Assembly: GCA_963965975.1 (NCBI GenBank)
Contig: OZ014411.1
Location: 24,287,249 to 24,351,248, forward strand
DNA from: Xestospongia bergquistia
Lineage: Eukaryota; Porifera; Demospongiae; Haplosclerida; Petrosiidae
Direction of reading: 5' to 3'
DNA length: 64,000 nucleotides
Shown here: one piece after another, positions 6,021 through 51,800 of the stretch
How the letters are laid out: every line of letters starts with the position of its first letter
Position numbering within the stretch: the first letter of the stretch is position 1
Notes under the pieces: model-generated
The model's database searches: none
What the model saw: the letters and a program-made list of their open reading frames with translations, nothing else
Told to the model about the DNA's origin: nothing
Made by a program: the position numbers and the translations under genes

Positions 6021-8560
6021 ATGAGGAAACCATTTATTATTTTCATTTTGTTTTGTTTGTTGGTGTTCATATGTACATTGTTATGTCTTTCACCACAGAT
6101 AGGACTGATTAGCCCATTCCTCGTTAGTTTTCGAGACAAAATCCGTTACCATGACGATGCAATTGTGAGTCAGCACACAAAAAGTAATTATAAATATTTG
6201 TGTAATCATTATTACAATTATTTACTTGTAATAATTTTTTTGTAAGCAACATACTTATTTAAAGGCAATTTAAGTCAGTTAATTAAAAGATGGCTATATC
6301 TAGCTGGGATTGTTCAACCATCCTGATTAGATATAGCTAGTTTTTATAATATATTTTTACATATATATAGGCTGGCTGTGTGACCCAACATGTGTCACAC
6401 AGCTACCATAAGCCTGAAGGAGGTTGAATGGCACTGTACCTTTCAATCCATTTTTAAAAAACTGAATTACTGGAACTTGTGTGATACTAATACACCAATA
6501 AATTCATCCGAAAAGGACTTTCTTTTTTTCCTATAGTTAATTGACAGTGAGTATACCGGAGAAACAACTCAGTAAGTAATCTGATAGTTGATGTATTCTT
6601 TGATAATATAAAAAAGTTAAATTAATAGTGTCAAATTGCTAGAATGTCTCAATAGAATGCTTTATCTCTCTTGTGAGTTAATTAATGGCCTCTTACAAAC
6701 TTACCAGGTTAATTTTCAATTGTATTTACCAATATATAAAAAAGAGAGTAAACTAATGTGTATAAAATTTTTACTGGAACAGAAGACTTTTGTAGTTGTA
6801 ATCATTGAATACTTTGACAAGGTTGGTATAATATCAAGTTGGTATTGTAACTTTTGCTTATATATAATATTTCATAATGTTATTTTACATTTTCTCTGTA
6901 TTAATAAATTGCTCGACATTTATCATGTTGTAACATTATATTGTACTCAGTTTTAAATCTAGCGGTTTTATTAATAAGACATATATGAAACTACCTCATA
7001 ACTTTGATCACCCTGCTCCTCCTGACAATATTTGGGTGACAATTAACAATCGTCAATTAGTGGTATGTTCAAATCCTTAATAAATATTGTAGTACAGTTG
7101 TTATTGTTTTATTACAGATTAGACGTCTTGCTTATTATGATACTAGAGACATTTCCAATATTAGAGTTGTGCTTATCTCACTTCATGATGACAGAAAGAA
7201 AGTCAAGCCTGCCATATATGCTCTGTTAAGATATTCTACTGGCAACAAACTGTGTCTACCATTGGAATATTGGATACAAAGTGGTAATGTAAATAAAGCA
7301 ACTAAAGAAGATTATGTCAATTACATATTAAGAACAAAAGGACCAGTTAAGGAAATGCCTTTGAATGTATCAGTGACTACAGATATGAAGTGTCAGGCTT
7401 CTCTTTCAGTAGATATACCTGTTATAGGAGAACAACAAGGTACCAATGTGTTCACATATGGTGTTTGCTTGCATAAGGCACTGTTCTGGTTAGGTGAACC
7501 ACAGGTCAGTTAGAGTAGTATCATATAAACAGAAATTTTGAGGTAAAATTTTTAAAGATATTAATGAATTAAAATATTTGGAAATTACTACTTGGTATAC
7601 TACCCACTATAGACACCACACTCAACAGTGTTCTATAAAATGATACAACTTTAATATTAGCCATATATGCTAGGCAATGTTAAACTAATTTTGCTAAACT
7701 TTACTATTTATATTTTACTTCAATGACATCTCCATTGTGCAGTGAATATTTCTGACAGTTTGCTTTGGTTTAAAATTCAATTTTAGCTAAATTACCTAGT
7801 TACTATATTGTAAATGTAACTTATATTATTTTTCTTATAGTTGCTAGTTGACTGGGTTGAACTGAACAAAGAATTAGGAGCAGAAATAATTACTGTATAC
7901 TTTCAAGATGTTCGTGAACCAATGTATAATGTGCTAAAACCTTACATCAAAAGTGGATTAGTTGAGGTACTGGACTGGAGTCTCAAAAAGCCAACAATTG
8001 AAGAGTATACATTTTGCTTTGGTCAGTCAGCTGTCATTAATGAATGCATATGGCGCAATATGTTTCGAGTGAAGTACCTTGGAGTCTTTGATATTGACGA
8101 GTTCATTGTTCCTGGATTAAACTATAGGAAATGTCCAGATATGTTACGATATCTTGAAAAGTTAAAAAAACGCAAGCCTGCTTCAGCTTACCTTTTTCGT
8201 AACACTTACTGGTTTGAAGACAATGTGACTGTTCCTGAAGTAAAAGATATCAAAGTTTGTTCTAAGATGCGCTTGCCTCGCTACTTTAAAAGAACTCAAC
8301 GAGCTACTCATCCAGAGAAATATGGATCAGACAAGTTGATTGTAAAACCAAAAGCAGTAAATTCAGTTCAAGTACATTATGTTGTAAATCATCAAAAGGG
8401 ATATGGTAGAGAGTATATAGTTCCAAATGATGTTGGACTAAGTCATCATTATCGTAAACCATATAGAATGCCTGACTTTACTCCACACGAATATTCTGGT
8501 GCTATGGGTCGCTATGTGGCTCAAGTCCTTCCCAAAATACATGAACAAATGTGCAAATAA
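6021..8560 (+). CDS. Glycosyltransferase family 92 (DUF23) type II membrane protein
   Basis: Five exons with consistent phases: 6021-6164, 6537-6571, 6951-7062, 7118-7504 and 7841-8560, giving about 465 residues. The N-terminus MRKPFIIFILFCLLVFIC is a signal anchor, so the catalytic part is expected in the Golgi lumen. The C-terminal half has the GT92 core: an LVDWVELNKELGAEIITVYF block and the metal-binding DxD-like motif in GVFDIDEFIVPG (about residues 308-318), followed by YWFEDN and a late VHYVVNH/HHYRKPYR region. GT92 enzymes in animals transfer galactose to glycans; the acceptor here cannot be told from sequence. An AATAAA overlaps the stop codon. The start at 6021 is preferred to an upstream in-frame ATG at 5973 because it puts the hydrophobic anchor at the very N-terminus. 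Confidence 0.85.
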
Positions 8561-8954
8561 AAAGTTTTAATAACTTTTAAAAAAATTTTAATTATTTTTG
8601 CTGTTAGTATTTGTTAATATAACATTCAATTTTTCTATATTACACTTATAATTGTCACTATTTTAAACCTAAAAATGTATGTCCACATTATAACAAAATT
8701 TTATAGTTTTGCAACTTATTAATATAGGCTATTGATATAAATACTAACAATAAAAGGCATTAAAACCTCAACAAAGATAAACAACTATACCTTATTACCA
8801 AACACACATGTATATGTACTTGTATACGATAGCTCTTATACTAAGTATATGAATATTCTAAAAAAAGTGTAAAAAACTTTAAATACTATTGCATATACTA
8901 CCAATCAAGCTTAACATTATATGAGTCATTATCCTTTTATTGTGTCCTAATAAA
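8561..8954. other. Convergent intergenic spacer
   Basis: AT-rich 394 bp between the 3' ends of the GT92 and beta-TrCP-like genes. TTTATT at 8936-8941 is an AATAAA on the minus strand, about 14 nt after the beta-TrCP-like stop. No gene is seen. Confidence 0.6.
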
Positions 8955-11700
8955 TTAGTTGGCTTCTTCAGGAGCTAGTTCATCAGTTGTCTCTGTCTCG
9001 TTAGCTACAGGAGGGGCAAGAAAAAAGTCCCAAATTAGAATAGCATCACCATCTGAGCCACAAACAACTTGAAACTTGTCAAACTGTAGTCTAAAAATCC
9101 AACTTGTATTTTCCTATGTAATGCAATACTGATATCAAAAATAAGACTTTATATTAAGCATACTGATAGTGTTTGTAAACAGAGGTTATTAGCTGGTGTA
9201 GTTGGATCAAGTGCAGCTTTCATGTCCCAAATCTTTACAGTTCTATTAACAGAAACAATTAACGTAACAAATAACATTAATCATTGTAACTAATGTGACT
9301 GATATTATAACTAATAATAAAGTGAATATTATAATTGTTATAAGATAAACATATGTACATACATATTTGAACTGTCTACTGTATACATTCTACAATTAAT
9401 TTACCCATCATAAGATCCACTGACAATTCTCTTATCATCAAATCGAACACACCTATAGAACATTATGTATAATATATAGAAATATAGCAGAAAAAAGTAC
9501 TTGTATATTACATACCTAACTAAATGTTGATGACCTTGTAATACTCTAACACATAGGCCACATTCAACATCCCATATCCTAGACAACAATGAATTGTAGA
9601 TCTTAATAAAATGATTATATAGCATATGTCTTTTCCATTTTTCCCCAGCCACTAAAGTTTTATCTAGATTTGTTCCTGACCTTATGTCATTGTCTTGAGA
9701 GCCGCTGACTACAAAGTTTCCTTTGTAATGAAGGGAAGAAATACCACGTCTATGTCCCTCTAGCATACGTACAAACTCACAAGTTTTAGTACACCATATC
9801 TGTTAAAATAACAGTTAATAAACAAGTGGAAAGACTTTTTTTAAAATTATACTTTTAAGGTTTTATCACCAGAACCAGAGATAATGTAGTTCTTATCAAA
9901 TTCAACAACATTTACAGCTGCTGTGTGGCCGACTATTGCCTTCCTTATTAATATATTTGATGGTGTATATATGTCCCACACAGCTAATGTACGATCCTAT
10001 GTAACAAAATAAACAGATATGAGTTTAATATACCAGTCACTAATTGATAGAGTATATAAAGTACACAGTTACAAGATTTTGTATTAGTTATTAGCTTATG
10101 GGTTCCTGATAACATGTTATCAGGAACCCATAAGCTCACAAATGTGCTTTTTTATTTAAACCTAGTGGTTACCTAGCAACAATATAAAATATAAAATAGT
10201 AGCTCAGTCATTATAATAAAATCATTCTTGTCTAATTACAGAGAAAAATACAAGCATTTAATAGTAACGGAAATATCAGAACCGACAGCTGTAAAAACTG
10301 AACCAGAAAGACATTTCTGATTTGGTAAGTTATGAATAAACAGAACAATATAATAACTAATCTAATAATCATGAATATGTACAAGAATGATTTTATTATA
10401 ATGACTGAGCTACTATATTATATTTTATATTGTTGCTAGGTAACCACTAGGCTTAAATAAAAAAGCACTGAATATTCTCTTTAATAATATTTGTATAAAG
10501 GATAAAAATACATTTTATTACATTAATTCTCCACATTAGAATATCATTCAGTTACAGATAGCTATTATTATAGTGTTTTACAAAAGTACATGTTATTATA
10601 GACACCTTTGATGAAGTAATTAACGTGTCTTTGTTAAATTGAAGATGAAGGACATTGTCTGAGTGATGTATAAGAGTATTAACAATTTGTCCTGTCACTA
10701 TATCCCACACTCTAATAGATATAAAAAAATAAATCACTACAACATATACATTATATGTTACCTGATAGTTGAGTCAACTGATCCTGAAATAATAATGTTT
10801 TCATCATATTGTAGACATAAAACTGACCCAGTATGGCCAGACAATACTTTAGTGCATTCCAGTGTATTTCGATCCCATATCTAGAATAATATAGTAATTA
10901 TAAAATAAAAAGGGTAGACCAAAATCAGAAAACAATAGAAACTTTATAAACATAGAAAAGAGCTAGTAAAGGTTTAATAGCATTCTTATTAACAGCAGTC
11001 ATTTATATAGTACTGGTAACAGTCCTAAGAGTGGTGGTATATGTCAGCAGTAACTTTTATTCAGATTAATTTCCTTTGGAAGTGATATGCAACCATAGAA
11101 TTGTTGAATATAGACAACCAAAGTCTACCTCAATTAGAGTTATTGGATATATCATATCAAATTTCAATGTACATATCAGATTTTAATATTATATTACATG
11201 CATCAGATAACATTTTTAGTGAGAGATCTGGAAACAATGAGAGGTAGGGCAATAACATGTACAGAGAATATACATCATAACTACCTTACTGCTTACTGTG
11301 TCATGCTAAAAGTATAGAGTTAATAGTATAATATCGGTACCTTAATTGTGCAGTCTCTTAGTCCACACACAATACGTTCATTGTCATACTGTAGACAATA
11401 TACTCCTTTCCGTTCTCCACTTTGACAGTCAATGCATTTAAAAGAGTACATTCCATTGTTCCAATTATCTTCCAAAGTCTATGAATTAAATACATATCTC
11501 ATAAACTTTATATAATAGATAATTACCTGTATATCTTTTAAGATAGATGGATATAATCTTTTAAAGTAATTGCTGTCAGTTGGAGGAGCAGTTTCATTGT
11601 TAAAATATTGCCCCCTACAAACAATGATAAGAGAGAGTAAATGAATAAGATACTAATCGCACTTGTTCCTTGCTTATGAAATTAGTATTACTATTATTAC

Positions 11701-11750
<50 letters not shown>

Positions 11751-11842
11751 GACACCATCAACAGAAGGAGAGGGGGTGGGGGAACGAGCAAGCCACATGG
11801 CAGAATTACCCTTCCATAGAGAGATCAATAGGCATTGGAAAA

Positions 11843-11887
<45 letters not shown>

Positions 11888-14078
11888 ATTATTGATCTGG
11901 TCAACAACAAACAGTTAGTGATATATGACAAGTCTGCTACAATTATTAAAATCAAGATCAGACACAGGGCAAGCATTTAGTGAAGTGCTTGAAACATGAC
12001 TTCAAGCACTTGTTAAACTCATTACTAACACATCATCTTAATTTCATTATTATAGCACAGATTCCATATGATATAAAAAACCTTGCAACATTTCTCACAA
12101 TATATAGTATACTACTCTGACAACAAACATGTATGGTAAGCTAGAGAAGATCATGCTACTATTGATGTATTACAGAATTTTTTATGAACATGTGAAATTC
12201 AATTCTTAAATGGCAAGCGAAGTATGCCTGGCATTCCTAAGATTCTTTTCAGTCTTAAAACATAGCCAAGTAATGAAGCTCTTATTGGCCTAGGTATATA
12301 TTGTTATGTAACTTCTTGTTATACATATACATTTCTTAGATCATAGCAATTACATGTATTACAATGCACAACATACCATTGTCTTCTCTCAGAGAGTCCT
12401 TTCCAAACAGGAATAGTCTTGACATTACATGCAATGAGTTTTTTCCATAACTTTTCCTCTGATATGATATGGTACCACTCAGAACATACCTAGTGTAAAG
12501 TGTTAAAACTAGAACTAAGGTACTATAATTGTTTGTACCTGCTCTGCTTTGCTTAATGATTCAGCATCCAAGTAAGAGAAAAATTGGGATGTTACACGAT
12601 GGCGAACTTTAGAGGAAAAATTAAAGCATATTAAAATTCTTAAATTATATTATCTATCATGACATGTATTATTGGTTTTGTTATATTTATATTTCTTTAA
12701 TAATTAAGTTTGAAGGATATAAGTAAACAACTACAAACAAACCAAAACTTAACACAAAATACATCACATGTATACACTACATGACACACCCATCATTCAG
12801 CAAATACTTATATGAGAATTACCTTCCTTGTCTCCAAAAATAGATTCAAACTCTTGAATCCTTTGATCTATCTGATTGGATGTCTGTCCAATTTGCTCTT
12901 TCTGTGCAAAAGCTTTATCTGTTATAACGGAAACGTACATTATTACATGTACATGTACAAAATATTTACATGTACATGTATATACATACATGAATATATT
13001 GTAGATTCCTAAATACCTTTTAGTGTTTGAGCTTCATGTCCTCCAATTACCCTTGCTGTTAATAAAAGTGATACAATGTGATTGATATTGTTTGTAACTG
13101 ACCATAGTCTTTAAGGATAGCATATCCAAATGGTATGTTTTCTGTAGTTCCATTCAGCACATTAGCAAATACTTGTAGATTGTGATGATTATTGTGAACA
13201 GCAGCACGTATAGCCTTAAATAAAACACCTTTTATTTCTGACTGAGATCGTCCAACACCTTTAATAACAGACAAAGTTGAATCAGATATTACTTTCTCCT
13301 CCCACAGGCTGTGTGCCACACTGATTAGATGATGTAAATATAGTGAGAGGTTGCCATAATGATTGCGTAGAATATTACTGGCACTATCTAGAGGATTTGT
13401 TTGAAAAACAGTCTGCTCTTCATTAGGAAATTTTTGATCTAGAGATATAATGATCTTATAACAGAATGTATTTGTCATTTCTTACCAAATGCAGTGAGAA
13501 TTTCATTTCCCAAGGAGTTCATTTCCTCAAACTTGGACAATATCGTAGCAAATACTTTAAGTTTCTTGTAATCAAGTGATACTGCTGTATATATAGCAGT
13601 TAACAGTGCTATCTTCTTATTATCCAATGAGGTTTCTATTCCTTCCAAGTCATCAAGCGTTTGTTCGTCAATACACCTTTCACTATACAATAACTGAGAC
13701 ATGTCAATAGGACATATCATAGCCTGTAACACTGCAGCATGATAGTGCCCAAGTATAGTGCTGGCTTCATTATCTGGTACTGTATGTGCATAGGAGAAAA
13801 AATGGAACATTTAAGAATATATAAGAATTTACTAGTTCATTGTAGTTGATGACAAGTATATAATATTTCTTGTTGATAATCATAATGTTAGACTACTGAA
13901 CAATTTATAATTATGTATATATCTGTATACAATACAAATTGTACTGGTAGAGGTATTAAATATGGTAAAAGCTCATGAGATAGCATCAATCCAGTTTAAA
14001 GTTACACTGAATACGAAAGTATATATACTCACACAATTGGTCAACATTTAACTTGTCTTCGATATCTTTAAACGCCAT
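8955..14078 (-). CDS. BTRC-like: Beta-TrCP-type F-box/WD40 protein with two N-terminal death-fold-like domains
   Basis: Seventeen exons join in phase: 14033-14078, 13486-13779, 13103-13438, 13017-13055, 12823-12918, 12539-12606, 12377-12489, 11527-11614, 11341-11478, 10762-10880, 10606-10711, 9853-9996, 9681-9799, 9516-9578, 9405-9452, 9164-9242 and 8955-9113 (684 residues). Residues about 16-113 and 114-225 are two related helical domains ([20 protein letters not shown] and [20 protein letters not shown], each ending in a KVFA/QVFA..L helix) that look like CARD/death folds. About 239-270 may be coiled coil; 271-330 is an F-box ([20 protein letters not shown]). Residues 331-684 match vertebrate beta-TrCP closely, with seven WD40 blades (e.g. 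[29 protein letters not shown]). Beta-TrCP is the substrate receptor of an SCF ubiquitin ligase that binds DSGxxS phosphodegrons in IkB and beta-catenin. The human D domain is replaced here. The death-fold call rests on pattern only. Confidence 0.85.
10093..10136. repeat. 44-bp perfect palindrome
   Basis: AGCTTATGGGTTCCTGATAA... is followed immediately by its exact reverse complement, with no spacer. It lies in the beta-TrCP-like intron between exons 9853-9996 and 10606-10711, eight bases before a larger inverted repeat. Confidence 0.95.
10144..10468. repeat. Foldback element: 88-bp inverted arms, 149-bp loop
   Basis: Arm 10144-10231 and the reverse complement of 10381-10468 differ at only about three positions over 88 bp. 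Both contain GTGGTTACCTAGCAAC. It looks like a foldback MITE, or possibly a source of long hairpin RNA, since it lies inside a transcribed intron. Confidence 0.9.
11690..11895. repeat. Paired (TTA)n microsatellites
   Basis: Two ATT/TTA arrays (about 11690-11747 and 11845-11895) flank a G-rich unique segment, in the intron between exons 11527-11614 and 12377-12489 of the beta-TrCP-like gene. Confidence 0.95.
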
Positions 14079-39770: not shown

Positions 39771-40941
39771 TGATGACACCCAATATTAATACACGAAACA
39801 CATACTATATTATTAGGGGATGTAAATACTATATATACACTGTATAAATTATATTGGTTGATTTTGTCAATACTTGTTATATACAGGTGGATTTAGTAAA
39901 ATTATTAATTTTCCATCTTAGTGATGGCTGTCAATATTGTCACTTGTTTATAATTCGATTAAAAATAATACAAGTAGATAAAAATTTCTAAAAAGAAATC
40001 ATTATTGTAGGGATGGTAGTAAAAACATCTCGAACAAGTCCAAAGTAGGAATGACCATATTGACACACCCCCTACATATTAGCCACATGAAATAATCTAA
40101 CAGTTTTTATATTGAAAGGTGATATTTTATATACTGTGTTGTGATACATTCCTTCAATAAAATTATCACTTTCTATCAAACTGAACATTTTTTTTACTTT
40201 AGACTTCTTGTTTACCTCATATAACTGTTGTAACAAAGCCACTGATAATGTTGTTGCTATGTAAGATAGATCTAGTTGTGATAAGAATGTGAAATTTATT
40301 GGTAGTCTCTATTCTAATAATCATTATGTTACAGTCATAAAGATTAAGAGTACTGTAAATATTTACTTTAGTCTATACTACTACATCTGACTACTTAACA
40401 TCACTGTTTATTGTAGTGATGTCACATTGATGTTAATATTGGATTTATGACTTCTCATTATAAACTATATAGTATCCAAACTGTACTATACTTTTACTGT
40501 GTCAATAATACTGTTAATATCACAGACTTAAGTCACTACTGTATTTACATTTCTAAACCAAATGAAAAACTTACATTATGCGGTACTAATCATGCGTGTT
40601 CATGAGTTACCATAATATTGACCATGATCACATTAAAAGTTTGTTTTGTCATGCGTTTGTTGTAATAAGCAGTCACATGTTAAGTAGGGTAAGAGGTGAC
40701 CTTTACGATATTTGTAATTGTCAAAAAGATCATTAGATGTACATAAACACTAACTGTTTTTTAATAGAAAAGATAATTTTTCATTAGCCAGCAATAACAC
40801 AAAAAGATATTGTAGCATTTGAATATAATAATAATTATTAAGACAGTTTAATTTTCTTATTATATTCTTATGACAATACATAAAGTACATGACAATATAA
40901 AGTACATATATAATCAGCAAATGTTGTCAGAATTAGCAATA

Positions 40942-43900
40942 CTAGTTATCAAACAAAAGGGATTCTCGTTTCATGTCCATTAACATTGATGTATTCATTG
41001 ACACAAATGACGAAGTATGAGTAGGTTTACGCTCAATACCCAGTTTTCCTGGACGTGTTTTAGCATAAATGGTTGAAGACATTTCAACATAATCAATACC
41101 AGAAGGAGCAGGAGGCTTCTTGAATATATTCTTGACTTTTGGAATTAGTTTTTGCGAAAGAGACTTTAACAGACGATCCCAAACATGATAGAGTATAATA
41201 CCACAGAATATGACAAATGAAATTGATACTAAAAAAATACTTGGTACTTGTTGTTTGGGTTTCTCAAAGTTTTGTAGGTTCATGTAAGCCATCAATATTA
41301 GGTTGAGAATGAAAATCAACTCAAGACAAACCAAAGAAAACTGTCGATACACTCCTTTTAAAAAGAAATACATAAAAGTAATAGCAATTAAAAGACATGT
41401 TAATACAGCTAAGCTTGTTGTAGCCTTTACATCTAGAGACACAACCAGTGCTAAGACAACACGAACGAGTAGTAATAATCCAGTCCAAAAACGACACTTG
41501 TCCTTATATGGACCTCCATATGCATCAAAGAATGGCTTCATATATGCTTGTAGTTTTTGGCAGCAGCACATGTATTTTGATAGAGGTCCTTCAAATAATG
41601 GTATACTGAAAAGGTAGAAGGTGTATGGAACAATTAGGAAAATGAGGACAGCCAGTGAGAATAGGAACAATGGTAGATGACAACCTCCCCTATATTGGAC
41701 ATTTGCATCAACATACCACCTTAGAAATATGTCATCGTTACAATTGATATGGGCACGATGGATAACATGAAAAACAGTGCGTATCAATTTGGTATAAGAG
41801 AGAAGGATCATAGTGGCTAGTACTGGAATTATTTGTCTTCCCACAAGTCGAACCATTTTGCTGGAATATCGTGATAATATTATGATAAGTATTAGAATAA
41901 ACCAAATGTAGACTGGAAAGATAAACTGAAGCCATGTCTTACTACAAGAATCCATACCATCAAAGAAACAAGTTTTAATACCCAGATCAAGATTGATCCA
42001 GGAAATGAACTGACTAAGAATTGGAATGTGACCACCAGAAAAGAAGATGGGTTCATATATTTTGACAACGTTAGCGTAGAATATAAGTCCATTGATTGTA
42101 CCCACAGATACAGTTAGATTTAAAACAATGACGAAAGCTACCAGTGCTATACCAGCCACAGCAAATGGAAGGATAAAAGCTATGTGGTCATTAGTACATT
42201 CTTCACATTGATTGGAACCTAATGTAAGACTGAGTCCTTTTTTACATTTTCCACAGAGTATTCCAGACCTATTGTGAAGACATTGCGGATCAGGAAAGTT
42301 GACTTTAAATGGAATTGTTCCATCATTGCAGTAATCATAGGGACAGTTTTGATAGACGATAAGACAGTCTGAGTCATTTTTATAACCAATCCACATATCA
42401 CCATATCTAGTTATATTTTGAGTGTTAATATCACAATTAATTGACTTAGAAGGCAAATTTAATTCATGCGTACAAACACAAGCGTCCTTACCCAACATAA
42501 ACCCAATTGGACAGGACTCAATTGTAACATCAATGACTTTAGTTAATGAAAGTTTACTGATTGAACTTTCAAGCTTTGCATATATCTGTGCTGTGTTCAA
42601 CGAAAGGTTTTTTTCAATCGTAACATTTGTACATTTTGCACTTAGTCTAGTTTGCTCAGTATATAAACCATCTGATGATGTCAATTTTACCACACCCTCT
42701 GTTAAGCCATCCTTTAAACCAGCAATGGCTAGTGATACACTTACATCAATCCCAGGTATTGCAGTCATAGTAATATTTGTAATAGAACAGTTTTGCGTGT
42801 TATATTCACAAAAACACACTTGAATAGGATCTGATGATACTATTGAATTACCTTTCTGCTGAGAATAGTGAAAAAGGGATTTAAAGTCTCTCTCATTAAA
42901 ACAATTATCAAAATTACCACCATATAGCACATCACCTGATATGTCAGCTTTATTGTTGACAAAATATAACACAGCACTGGAATTATAGTAAGAACGGTGA
43001 AGAACAAAGGAGCAAACGTCTGCATCAACATGTGATATAAAGATTCCTCCACCTGACTCACTGGCATGATTATTGAAAAACGAGATGTTTGCTTGCTGAT
43101 TTAGTAACAACTGGGAAGATTCATATAAAGCAATACCTCCACCTTTAATGCCAGAATTGTTTGTAAATCTGCTGTGTTTATGAAATGTTAACCAACTATT
43201 GAAACACACTAATCCAGTTGTGTTATGATTACTAACTTCAATGTGATCAAATGTAACATTAACAATGTTGAATAATACCAGAGCAGATCGATATACTTCT
43301 CCATAAACAGCCAGTTTATTACTTGCTTTATTGGAATGAAATGAAATGTTTTTAAAATGAAAACTAGTTGTTGAAGTAATTTGAAGAGCACGGAGAAACA
43401 ACCCTGATCCAAGGTATGCAGTATTGTTGTATATATTGCAGTTATCTAACTCGATACTAAGACCGTCTTCATACAAATCAATGTACACTCCTCCTCCATC
43501 ATAATGAGCAGTATTATTATATATAGTGCAGTTGCTAAACTTAATAGTACCAACTCCTTCATACAAATCAATGTCCACTCCTCCTCCAACACGATGAGCA
43601 ATATTGTTGCATATAGTGCAGGTATTGAACTCAATACTACAATTTCCTGATAACCTAATGTCCACTCCTCCTCCTTCTCCATTTAACTCTGCATTATTAT
43701 TGCAAAAAGTGCAGCTTAAAAACTCAATACTACCATTTCCTCCATGTGAATTAATGTACACTCCACCTCCTCTTCCAAAATATAGAACAGTGTTATTGTT
43801 TATATTGCAGTTATAAAACTCAATATTACTGTTCCCATTCAAATATGTATAAATGTACACTCCTCCTCCATTGTAATGTGCAGTATTTTTGTATATAGTG

Positions 43901-47864: not shown

Positions 47865-48834
47865 TTTTCCATCTTAGTGAGGTCTGTCAATATTGTCACG
47901 AAATAATACAAGTAGATAAAAATTTCTAAAAAGAAATCACTATTGTAGGGATTGTAGTAAAGACATCTCAAACAAGTCCAAAGTAGGAATGACCATATGG
48001 ACATTCCCTGCATAGTAGCCACATGAAGTAATCTAACAGTTTTTATATTAAAAGGTGATATTTTATATACTGTGTTGTGAGTACATTCCTTAGACTTCTT
48101 ATGGGATTGTTTACCTCATATAACTGTTGTAACAAAGCCACTGATAATGTTGTTACTATGTAAGATAGATCTAGTTGTGATAAGAATGTGAAATTTATTG
48201 GTAGTCTCTATTCTAATAATCATTATGTTACAGTCATAAAGATTAAGAGTACTGTAAATATTTACTTTAGTCTATACTACTACATCTGACTACTTAACAT
48301 CACTGTTTATTGTAGTGATGTCACATTGATGTTATATTGGATTTATGACTTCTCATTATAAACTATAATATCCAAACTGTACTATACTTTTACTGTGTCA
48401 ATAATACTGTTAATATCACAGACTTAAGTCACTACTGTATTTACATTTCTAAACCAAATGAAAAACTTACATTATGCGGTACTAATCATGCATGTTCATG
48501 AGTTACCATAATATTGACCATGATCATATTAAAAGCTTGTTTTGTCATGCGTTTGTTGTAATAAGTAGTCACATGTTAAGTAGGGTAAGAGGTGACCTTT
48601 ACGATATTTGTAATTGTCAAAAAGATCATTAGATGTACATAAACACTAACTGTTTTTTAATAGAAAAGATAACTTTTCATTAGCCAGCAATAACACAAAA
48701 AGATATTGTAGCATTTGAATATAATAATTATTAAGACAGTTTAATTTTCTTATTATATTCTTATGACAATACATAAAGTACATGACAATATAAAGTACAT
48801 ATATAATCAGCAAATGTTGTCAGAATTAGCAATA

Positions 48835-51800
48835 CTAGTTATCAAACAAAAGGGATTCTCGTTTCATGTCCATTAACAGTGATGTATTCATTGACACAAA
48901 TGACGAAGTATGAGTAGGTTTACGCTCAATACCCAGTTTTCCTGGACGTGTTTTAACATAAACAGTTGAAGACATTTCAATATAATCAATACCAGAATGA
49001 ACATGAGGCTTCTTGAATATATTCTTGACTTTAGGAATTAGTTTTTGCGAATGAGATGTTAACAGACGATCCCAAACATGATAGAGTATAATACCACAGA
49101 ATATGACAAATGACATTGATACTAAAAAAATACTTTGTACTTGTTGTTTGGGTTTCTCAAAGTTTTGTAGATTCATGTAAGCCATCAATATTAGGTTGAG
49201 AATGAAAATCAACTCAAGACAAACCAAAGAAAACTGTTGATATACTCCTTTTAAAAAGAAATACATAAAAGTAATAGCAATTAAAAGACATGTTAATACA
49301 GCTAAGCTTGTTGTAGCTTCAGTATCTAGAGACACAACCAGTGCTAAGACAACACGAACGAGTAGTAATAATCCAGTCCAAAAACGGCACTTGTCCTTAT
49401 ATGGACCTCCATATGCATCAAAGAAAGGCTTCATATATGCTGATAGCTTTTGGCAGTAGCACAAGTATTTTGATAGAGGTCCTTCAAATAATGGTATAGT
49501 GAAAAGGTAGAAGGTGTATGGAACAATTAGGAAAATGAGGACAGCCAGTGAGAATAGGAACAATGGTAGATGACAACCTCCCATATATTGGACGTTTGCA
49601 TCAACGTACCACCTTAGAAATATGTCATTGCTACAATTGATATGGGCACGATGGATAACATGAAAAACAGTGCGTATCAATTTGGTATAAGAGAGAAGGA
49701 TCATAGTGGCTAGTACTGGAATTACTTGTCTTCCTACAAGTCGAACCACTTTGCTTGAATATCTTAACAATATTATGATAACTATCAGAATAAACCAAAT
49801 GTAGGTTGGAAAGATAAACTGAAGCCATGTCTTACTACAAGAATCCATACCATCAAAGAAACAAGTTTTAATACCCAAATCAAGATTGATCCAGGAAATG
49901 AACTGACTAAGAATTGGAATGTGACCACCAGAAAAGAAGATGGGTTCATATATTTTGACAACGTTAGCGTAGAATATAAGTCCATTGATTTTACCCACAG
50001 ATACAGTTAGATTTAAAACAATGACAAAAGCTACCAGTGCTATACCAGCCACAGCAAATGGAAGGATAAAAGCTATGTGGTCATTAGTACATTCTTCACA
50101 TTGATTGGAACCTAATGTAAGACTGAGTCCTTTTTTACATTTTCCACAGAGTATTCCAGACCTATTGTGAAGACATTGTGGATCAGGAAGGTTGACTTTA
50201 AATGGAATTGTTCCATCATTGCAGTAATCATAGGGACAGTTTTGATAGACGATAAGACAGTCTGAGTCATTTTTATAACCAATCCACATATCACCATATC
50301 TAGTTATATTTTGAGTGTTAATATCACAATTAATTGATTTAGAAGGCAAATTTAATTCAGGCGTACAAACACAAGCGTCCTTACCCAACATAAACCCAAT
50401 TGGACATGACTCAATTGTAACATCAATGACTTTAGTTAATGAAAGTTTACTGATTGAACTTTCAAGTTTTACATATATCTGTGCTGTGTTCAACGAAAGG
50501 TTTCTTTCAATCGTAACATTTGTACATTTTGCATTTAGTCTAGTTTGCTCAGTATATGAACCATCTGATGATGTCAATTTTACCACACCCTCTGTTAAGC
50601 CATCCTTTAAACCAACAATAGCTAGTGATACACTTACATCAATTCCAGGTATTGCAGTGATAGTAATATTTGTAATAGAACAGGTTTGCCTGTTAGATTC
50701 ACAAAAACACACTTGAATAGGATCTGATGACACTATTGAATTACCTTTCTGCTGAGAATAGTGAAAAAGGGATTTAAAGTCTCTCTCATTAAAACAATTA
50801 TCAAAATTACCACCATATAGCACATCACCTGATATGTCAGCTTTATTGTTGACAAAATATAACACAGCACTGGAATTATAGTAAGAACGGTGAAGAACAA
50901 AGGAGCAAACGTCTGCATCAACATGTGATATAAAGATTCCTCCACCTGACTCACTGGCATGATTATTGAAAAACGAGATGTTTGCTTGCTGATTTAGTAA
51001 CAACTGGGAAGATTCATATAAAGCAATACCTCCACCTTTAATGCCAGAATTGTTTGTAAATCTACTATGTTTATGAAATGTTAACCAACTATTGAAACAC
51101 ACTAATCCAGTTGTGTTATGATTACTAACTTCAATGTGGTCAAATGTAACATTAACAATGTTGAATAATACCAGAGCAGATCGATATACTTCTCCATAAA
51201 CAGCCAGTTTATTACTTGCTTTATTGGAATGAAATGAAACGTTTTTAAAATGAAAACTAGTTGTTGAAGTAATTTGAAGAGCACGGAGAAACAACCCTGA
51301 TCCAAGGTATGCAGTATTGTTGTATATATTGCAGTTATCTAACTCAATACTAACACCGTCTTCATACAAATCAATGTACACTCCTCCTCCATCATAATGA
51401 GCAGTATTATTATATATAGTGCAGTTGCTAAACTCAATAGTACCAACTCCTTCATACAAATCAATGTCCACTCCTCCTCCAACACGATGAGCAATATTGT
51501 TGCATATAGTGCAGGTATTGAACTCGATACTACAATTTCCCGATAACCTAATGTCCACTCCTCCTCCTTCTCCATTTAACTGTGCATTATTATTGCATAA
51601 AGTGGAGCTTAGAAACTCAATACTACCATTTCCTCCATGTGAATTAATGTACACTCCACCTCCTCTTCCAAAATATAGAACGGTGTTATTGTTTATATTG
51701 CAGTTATAGAACTCAATACTACTGTTCCCATTCAAATAAATGTACACTCCTCCTCCATTGTAATATGCAGTATTTTTGTACATAGTGCAGTTACAAAATT

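Follow-up and report, generated by a model that had tools for sequence, protein, structure and literature searches.

A beta-TrCP-type gene with two N-terminal CARD-type domains in the sponge Xestospongia bergquistia

In the genome of the sponge Xestospongia bergquistia, we identified a single gene in which a beta-TrCP-type F-box/WD40 receptor follows two CARD-type death-fold domains that stand in the position of the D domain. The gene lies in a 64,000-nucleotide stretch of contig OZ014411.1, hereafter the window, and positions without a prefix refer to that stretch. Death-fold assembly and SCF-dependent degradation converge in NF-kB control, where vertebrates keep them in separate proteins. 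Here, one gene joins death folds and SCF receptor parts, and an ordinary beta-TrCP gene on C13 of the same genome serves as a built-in control. Sequence and structure prediction give good support to both the fusion and the CARD fold.

Gene model

The gene model, read from the genomic DNA of one genome and rebuilt from splice sites, runs from 14078 to 8955 and comprises 17 exons (2,055 nt including the stop, 684 aa). Its features are listed below.

14033..14078, minus strand: exon 1, ATG plus 15 codons (splice sites, frame)
13486..13779, minus strand: exon 2, CARD 1, residues 17-113
13103..13438, minus strand: exon 3, CARD 2, residues 115-225 (piece residues 4-15 at pLDDT <50)
13017..13055, minus strand: exon 4, linker of 39 nt, both ends in phase 1 (from splice sites and frame only)
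12823..12918, minus strand: exon 5, linker of helical appearance, both ends in phase 1 (from splice sites and frame only)
12607..12822, minus strand: intron 5, junction of the fusion, phase 1, 216 nt
12539..12606, minus strand: exon 6, F-box, part one, without the preceding LP pair of the C13 copy (PF12937 39 bits, cut-off 24.3)
12377..12489, minus strand: exon 7, F-box, part two
11527..11614, minus strand: exon 8, F-box-to-propeller linker
11341..11478, minus strand: exon 9, start of the WD40 propeller (splice sites, frame, structure-sequence alignment)
10762..10880, minus strand: exon 10, WD40
10606..10711, minus strand: exon 11, WD40
9853..9996, minus strand: exon 12, WD40
9681..9799, minus strand: exon 13, WD40
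9516..9578, minus strand: exon 14, WD40
9405..9452, minus strand: exon 15, WD40
9164..9242, minus strand: exon 16, WD40
8955..9113, minus strand: exon 17, propeller end and stop
8936..8941, minus strand: AATAAA, a polyadenylation-type signal starting 14 nt past the stop

All exons join in phase in one open frame from the ATG at 14078 to the TAA ending at 8955, with GT-AG borders at 16 of 16 introns and no internal stop. The first-pass annotation had described a single gene with these ends and 17 exons, naming exons 3 and 7 by position, and all of this was confirmed. Exons 2 to 5 are phase 1 at both ends. Residues 226 to 369 contain no methionine, so translation of the beta-TrCP half could not begin independently within exons 6-8, ahead of the propeller.

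Among 2,749 window segments compared with a profile made from 18 exon starts of the family, the exon 1 frame ranked highest (E 0.42), with a matched stretch that overruns the splice donor. Exon 1 may thus be a stub of a lost Death-type exon of the kind that opens related genes, a likeness that is suggestive only; a complete Death-type exon was looked for upstream of the window CARD pair and not found. Exon 4 had no match in the loci examined besides the window's own DNA. Exon 5 was considered as a copy of the coil exon of the tandem-CARD family, to which it shows a weak likeness (E 0.005 and 1.1); the family coil profile misses it, and the relationship is not claimed.

A glycosyltransferase family 92 frame lies on the plus strand at 7841-8557 (PF01697, E 1.8e-33), its 3' end facing that of the fusion gene. 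Elsewhere in the window, 40828-41127 and 48721-49020 form a direct repeat, 97% identical and spaced 7,893 nt apart, with more copies at about 44.2-44.7 and 51.6-52.7 kb, suggesting that roughly 8 kb was duplicated in tandem.

The beta-TrCP half and the ordinary copy

The proposed resemblance of the F-box and WD40 half to vertebrate beta-TrCP was borne out by alignments from end to end, covering residues 274-673 with the FBXW11 structure 6wnx (E 2.5e-171) and residues 275-668 with the beta-TrCP1 structure 1p22 (E 3.1e-170). Six WD40 stretches were recognised by Pfam in the fusion protein. When the genome was searched with the F-box/propeller half (101 of 126 candidates scored), the window exons ranked first, followed by the exons of the C13 gene (48-74% identical) and then by other WD40 matches (23-59% identical). 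The window and C13 proteins are identical at 262 of 413 aligned residues, and the introns after the F-box exon agree in both phase and aligned codon in 11 of 11 cases. The D domain (PF12125) has its sole genome match at C13:1519904-1520017, inside the ordinary beta-TrCP (69.4 bits in the C13 piece), and is absent from the window gene piece; the fusion gene is therefore regarded as a beta-TrCP-derived paralogue and not as a full beta-TrCP. The junction intron is phase 1 in both genes, lying in the C13 copy between the D-domain exon and the F-box exon.

The F-box of the window gene scores below that of its paralogue, with 39 bits against 46 for PF12937 (cut-off 24.3) and 20.4 against 27.4 for PF00646, where the window value falls just under the cut-off of 20.5. 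Immediately before the junction the C13 protein reads ITALP and the window protein IFGDKE, so that the window F-box opens without an LP pair. In the consulted portion of PMC3386239, this pair is described as common to beta-TrCP1 and Skp2, and its mutation in human Skp2 abolished Skp1 binding; the same change in that paper's own full-length protein did not abolish binding.

Residues common to the human and C13 proteins are kept in the window copy at 32 of 43 positions in the F-box and 175 of 241 in the propeller, by which measure the F-box is not decaying faster than the propeller. At 14 presumed contacts of the phosphodegron pocket, the C13 protein matches human FBXW11 throughout (14/14) and the window protein at 10 of 14. 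The changed contacts are, in what we take to be the human numbering, S325V, A434S, S448Q and R521W. This retention is close to the background rate (219/302) and points to no extra protection of the pocket.

The CARD pair and its genomic family

Two homologous death-like domains had been proposed for the N-terminus, where the vertebrate protein has its dimerisation domain, and this description is upheld in a more specific form. The two domains are 29% identical, with a profile-profile probability of 99.7%, and both are predicted to form six-helix death folds of CARD type. The CARD profile scored 42.5 on the N-terminal domains and at most 14.9 on 40 column shuffles; a reversal control was also run. 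In hhalign comparisons with 13 CARDs of the same genome, probabilities were 94.1% for both domains together, 93.5% for CARD 2 alone and 75.4% for CARD 1 alone, against 0.8% with 12 Death domains of the same genome and at most 1.4% for 40 shuffles. The Death profile did not match the N-terminal domains.

Pfam CARD (PF00619) matched neither window domain nor any of 24 family domains, and the 16 places that it marked in a genome scan all lie outside the window. The CARD structures of RIG-I and MDA5 were among the fold matches of the predicted N-terminal models, with nothing at E 0.001 or better in Foldseek for either CARD model. By sequence, the PDB profile search ranked 4irl highest, a fusion of MBP and a zebrafish CARD, at an E-value that is not significant alone (0.069); with the profile of CARD 1 by itself there were four hits (best E 0.16), and no name among them was that of a CARD. 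When residues 1-270 were searched for related proteins, in a database that may hold no close sponge proteins, all 1,881 candidates had E-values above 0.001.

Around H2-H3, CARD 1 carries 1 basic and 8 acidic residues, and H1 and H4 of CARD 2 carry 4 basic and 1 acidic, so that a type I contact between an acidic CARD 1 and a basic CARD 2 is plausible. Mean net charge is -3.5 (-8 to 3) across 17 CARD 1 domains of the family and -0.4 (-4 to 5) across 18 CARD 2 domains, and the contrast between the two varies across the family.

The window pair is homologous to the pairs of a large Death-CARD-CARD family in the same genome. Searches with CARD 1 and CARD 2 gave 450 and 376 candidates and at least 150 scored places each, mostly on C3 and C4; these counts are lower bounds, and the scored CARD 1 matches include some CARD 2 places. 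Set against the 16 places marked by PF00619, they suggest that CARDs are far more numerous in this genome than a Pfam-based count would indicate. Among the matches listed, identity to family members reaches 65% for CARD 1 and 60% for CARD 2. As in the window gene, each CARD occupies one exon in most of the family loci read. Many loci also have an upstream Death-type exon, with 18 distinct starts; one scanned exon of this type reached 14.0 bits for PF00531, under the cut-off, and some pass it in the genome scan. One locus (L021), with a stop in its frame, was omitted from the CARD 2 alignments.

Downstream, the CARD pair is usually followed by an exon some 220 codons long, whose query sequence has IPRSMSS close to its start, found within 3 kb on the same strand at 85 of 90 CARD 2 places when the best 90 of 150 scored CARD 2 places were compared with all 150 scored matches of this exon (84 of 90 with part of these). 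The exon has 441 candidates genome-wide, at least 150 of them scored (for example L036 1191-1925 and L070 972-1727), and no significant Pfam match. In the window its best match is E 0.18, and no window place occurs among the 150 scored. The five places that lack it by count are the window gene, C3:10991967, C3:5271176, C4:5558725 and C4:6374254. Once the DNA was read, the exon was present at C3:10991967 (L076), and a partial one lies about 5 kb from C3:5271176; none of it was seen at the window gene, at C4:5558725 (L075), where an LRR frame follows, or at C4:6374254 (L077). The window gene is thus not the sole family member without this exon.

The C-terminal parts of the relatives, assigned by same-strand frames and not by spliced models, are diverse. 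They include NHL repeats (L037, E 1.5e-38), a caspase domain (L070 2765-3580, PF00656 E 1.5e-42) on the same strand as the CARD pair at C13:1488851-1489512, and LRR frames over the Pfam cut-off in L073 and L075, below it in L036, and recognised by eye only in L072 and L076. A genome scan found 97 NACHT places; the window has none of them, and the 90 CARD 2 places checked have none closer than 20 kb. The L070 caspase frame reads TSARGG where the aligned caspase-3 has QACRG, making it a probable dead caspase; the ordinary C13 beta-TrCP lies about 24 kb from its end. Frames resembling, by eye, a pogo/jerky-type transposase adjoin the CARD-pair gene of L036 (5866-6999).

Origin, possible roles and known systems

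The sequence suggests that beta-TrCP was duplicated with its introns, giving a copy without the D-domain exon, and that two symmetrical phase-1 exons of the tandem-CARD family, one CARD each, came to stand ahead of the phase-1 intron preceding the F-box. Since the junction is phase-matched and exons 2-5 are all phase 1, the D-domain exon appears to have been swapped for a phase-matched CARD head, and the origin of the fusion becomes readable as an exon swap at a phase-1 intron. Exon shuffling after an intron-retaining gene duplication is the origin to which this points; a retrocopy is ruled out by the 11 of 11 shared introns.

Both halves show low pairwise dN/dS. Between the window and C13 genes the ratio is 0.23 by NG86 (0.226/0.989), YN00 giving 0.211/2.517, and it is 0.22 for each of the F-box, the linker and the propeller. 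The CARD exons, each compared with four family members, gave 0.14-0.27, rough values given that the synonymous distances exceed 1.

CARDs are generally assembling domains. We judge the chances about evenly balanced that this is a functional chimeric gene encoding a substrate receptor without a D domain, scaffolded by its CARDs and dependent on a CARD assembly for pairing. The CARD pair would take over the job of the D domain in bringing receptors together, regulated through joining a CARD assembly, and its WD40 face would present phosphorylated clients from that assembly to an SCF ligase. The D domain serves dimerisation in the related FBW7 (PMC9691902, in the part consulted), and the consulted part of PMC8869227 offers a precedent for a CARD-controlled E3, the CARD regulating dimerisation and enzyme activity of cIAP1 and cIAP2. 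More tentatively, the protein may be a signalosome-targeted ubiquitin ligase, in which the pair joins CARD/caspase/LRR assemblies in nucleation, or is itself nucleated by them, and an SCF receptor of altered specificity, active only on the assembled complex, degrades parts or inhibitors in place. The active-SCF-receptor and signalling roles are hypotheses. Loss of the LP pair and a pocket kept no better than background count against a plain ligase; retention of the F-box as well as the propeller favours a live F-box.

A less likely alternative is a CARD-propeller adaptor or decoy that binds no SKP1 and ubiquitylates nothing; it would bring phosphorylated clients into contact with a CARD assembly or keep them away from ordinary beta-TrCP. 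The missing LP pair, the lower F-box scores and the missing D domain would all suit such a protein, but the remaining F-box is kept like the propeller, in dN/dS as in retained residues, which a dead F-box would not need. A CARD pair acting as a constitutive dimeriser only, in a tissue- or substrate-specific beta-TrCP with no immune link, seems unlikely: it would fit the replacement of the D-domain exon alone, and the four pocket changes suggest a new client, but elsewhere in the genome this CARD pair precedes a caspase frame at one locus and LRR frames at others, which points to a death/immune network and away from plain pairing. For a fusion read from genomic DNA, two adjacent genes or an assembly or annotation artefact are very improbable given the in-phase GT-AG exons, the short junction intron with the phase of the C13 pre-F-box intron, the stretch free of methionine, and low dN/dS on both sides.

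For the chimeric receptor, the pocket changes mean that its clients may well differ from those of ordinary beta-TrCP. The first-pass reading holds for one gene with a beta-TrCP-type F-box and propeller and two CARD-type death folds replacing the D domain; IkB as a client is not supported. One Rel-homology gene was found in the genome scan, on C9, and the pieces read (L078-L080, with the C-terminal part outside) contain no DSG(x2-4)S/T pattern. A beta-TrCP-type step in sponge NF-kB control is possible, which by itself does not tie the fusion gene to such a step.

The open-licence literature, judged by titles and abstract starts, yielded no paper on such a CARD/beta-TrCP fusion, and the term 'F-box' is absent from the main text of the Dysidea NLR paper. 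Compared with beta-TrCP/FBXW1A and FBXW11, the fusion is alike over the full length of F-box, linker and WD40 propeller, with introns as in the C13 copy, but it lacks the D domain and the LP pair, departs at 4 of 14 pocket contacts and carries two N-terminal CARDs. With cIAP1/cIAP2 it shares a CARD within a ubiquitin-ligase protein; the cIAPs have BIR, UBA and RING domains, as stated in the consulted part of PMC8869227, whereas the fusion joins a doubled, N-terminal CARD to a receptor of the cullin-ligase type. RIG-I and MDA5 likewise begin with two adjoining CARDs and match at the level of fold, but the fusion has no helicase, and the PDB profile search gave no significant RIG-I/MDA5 sequence match. 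With the Death-CARD-CARD genes of its own genome it shares the CARD pair and exon layout, carrying the beta-TrCP half instead of the IPRSMSS exon. The fusion protein could link CARD complexes of immunity or cell death directly to protein degradation.
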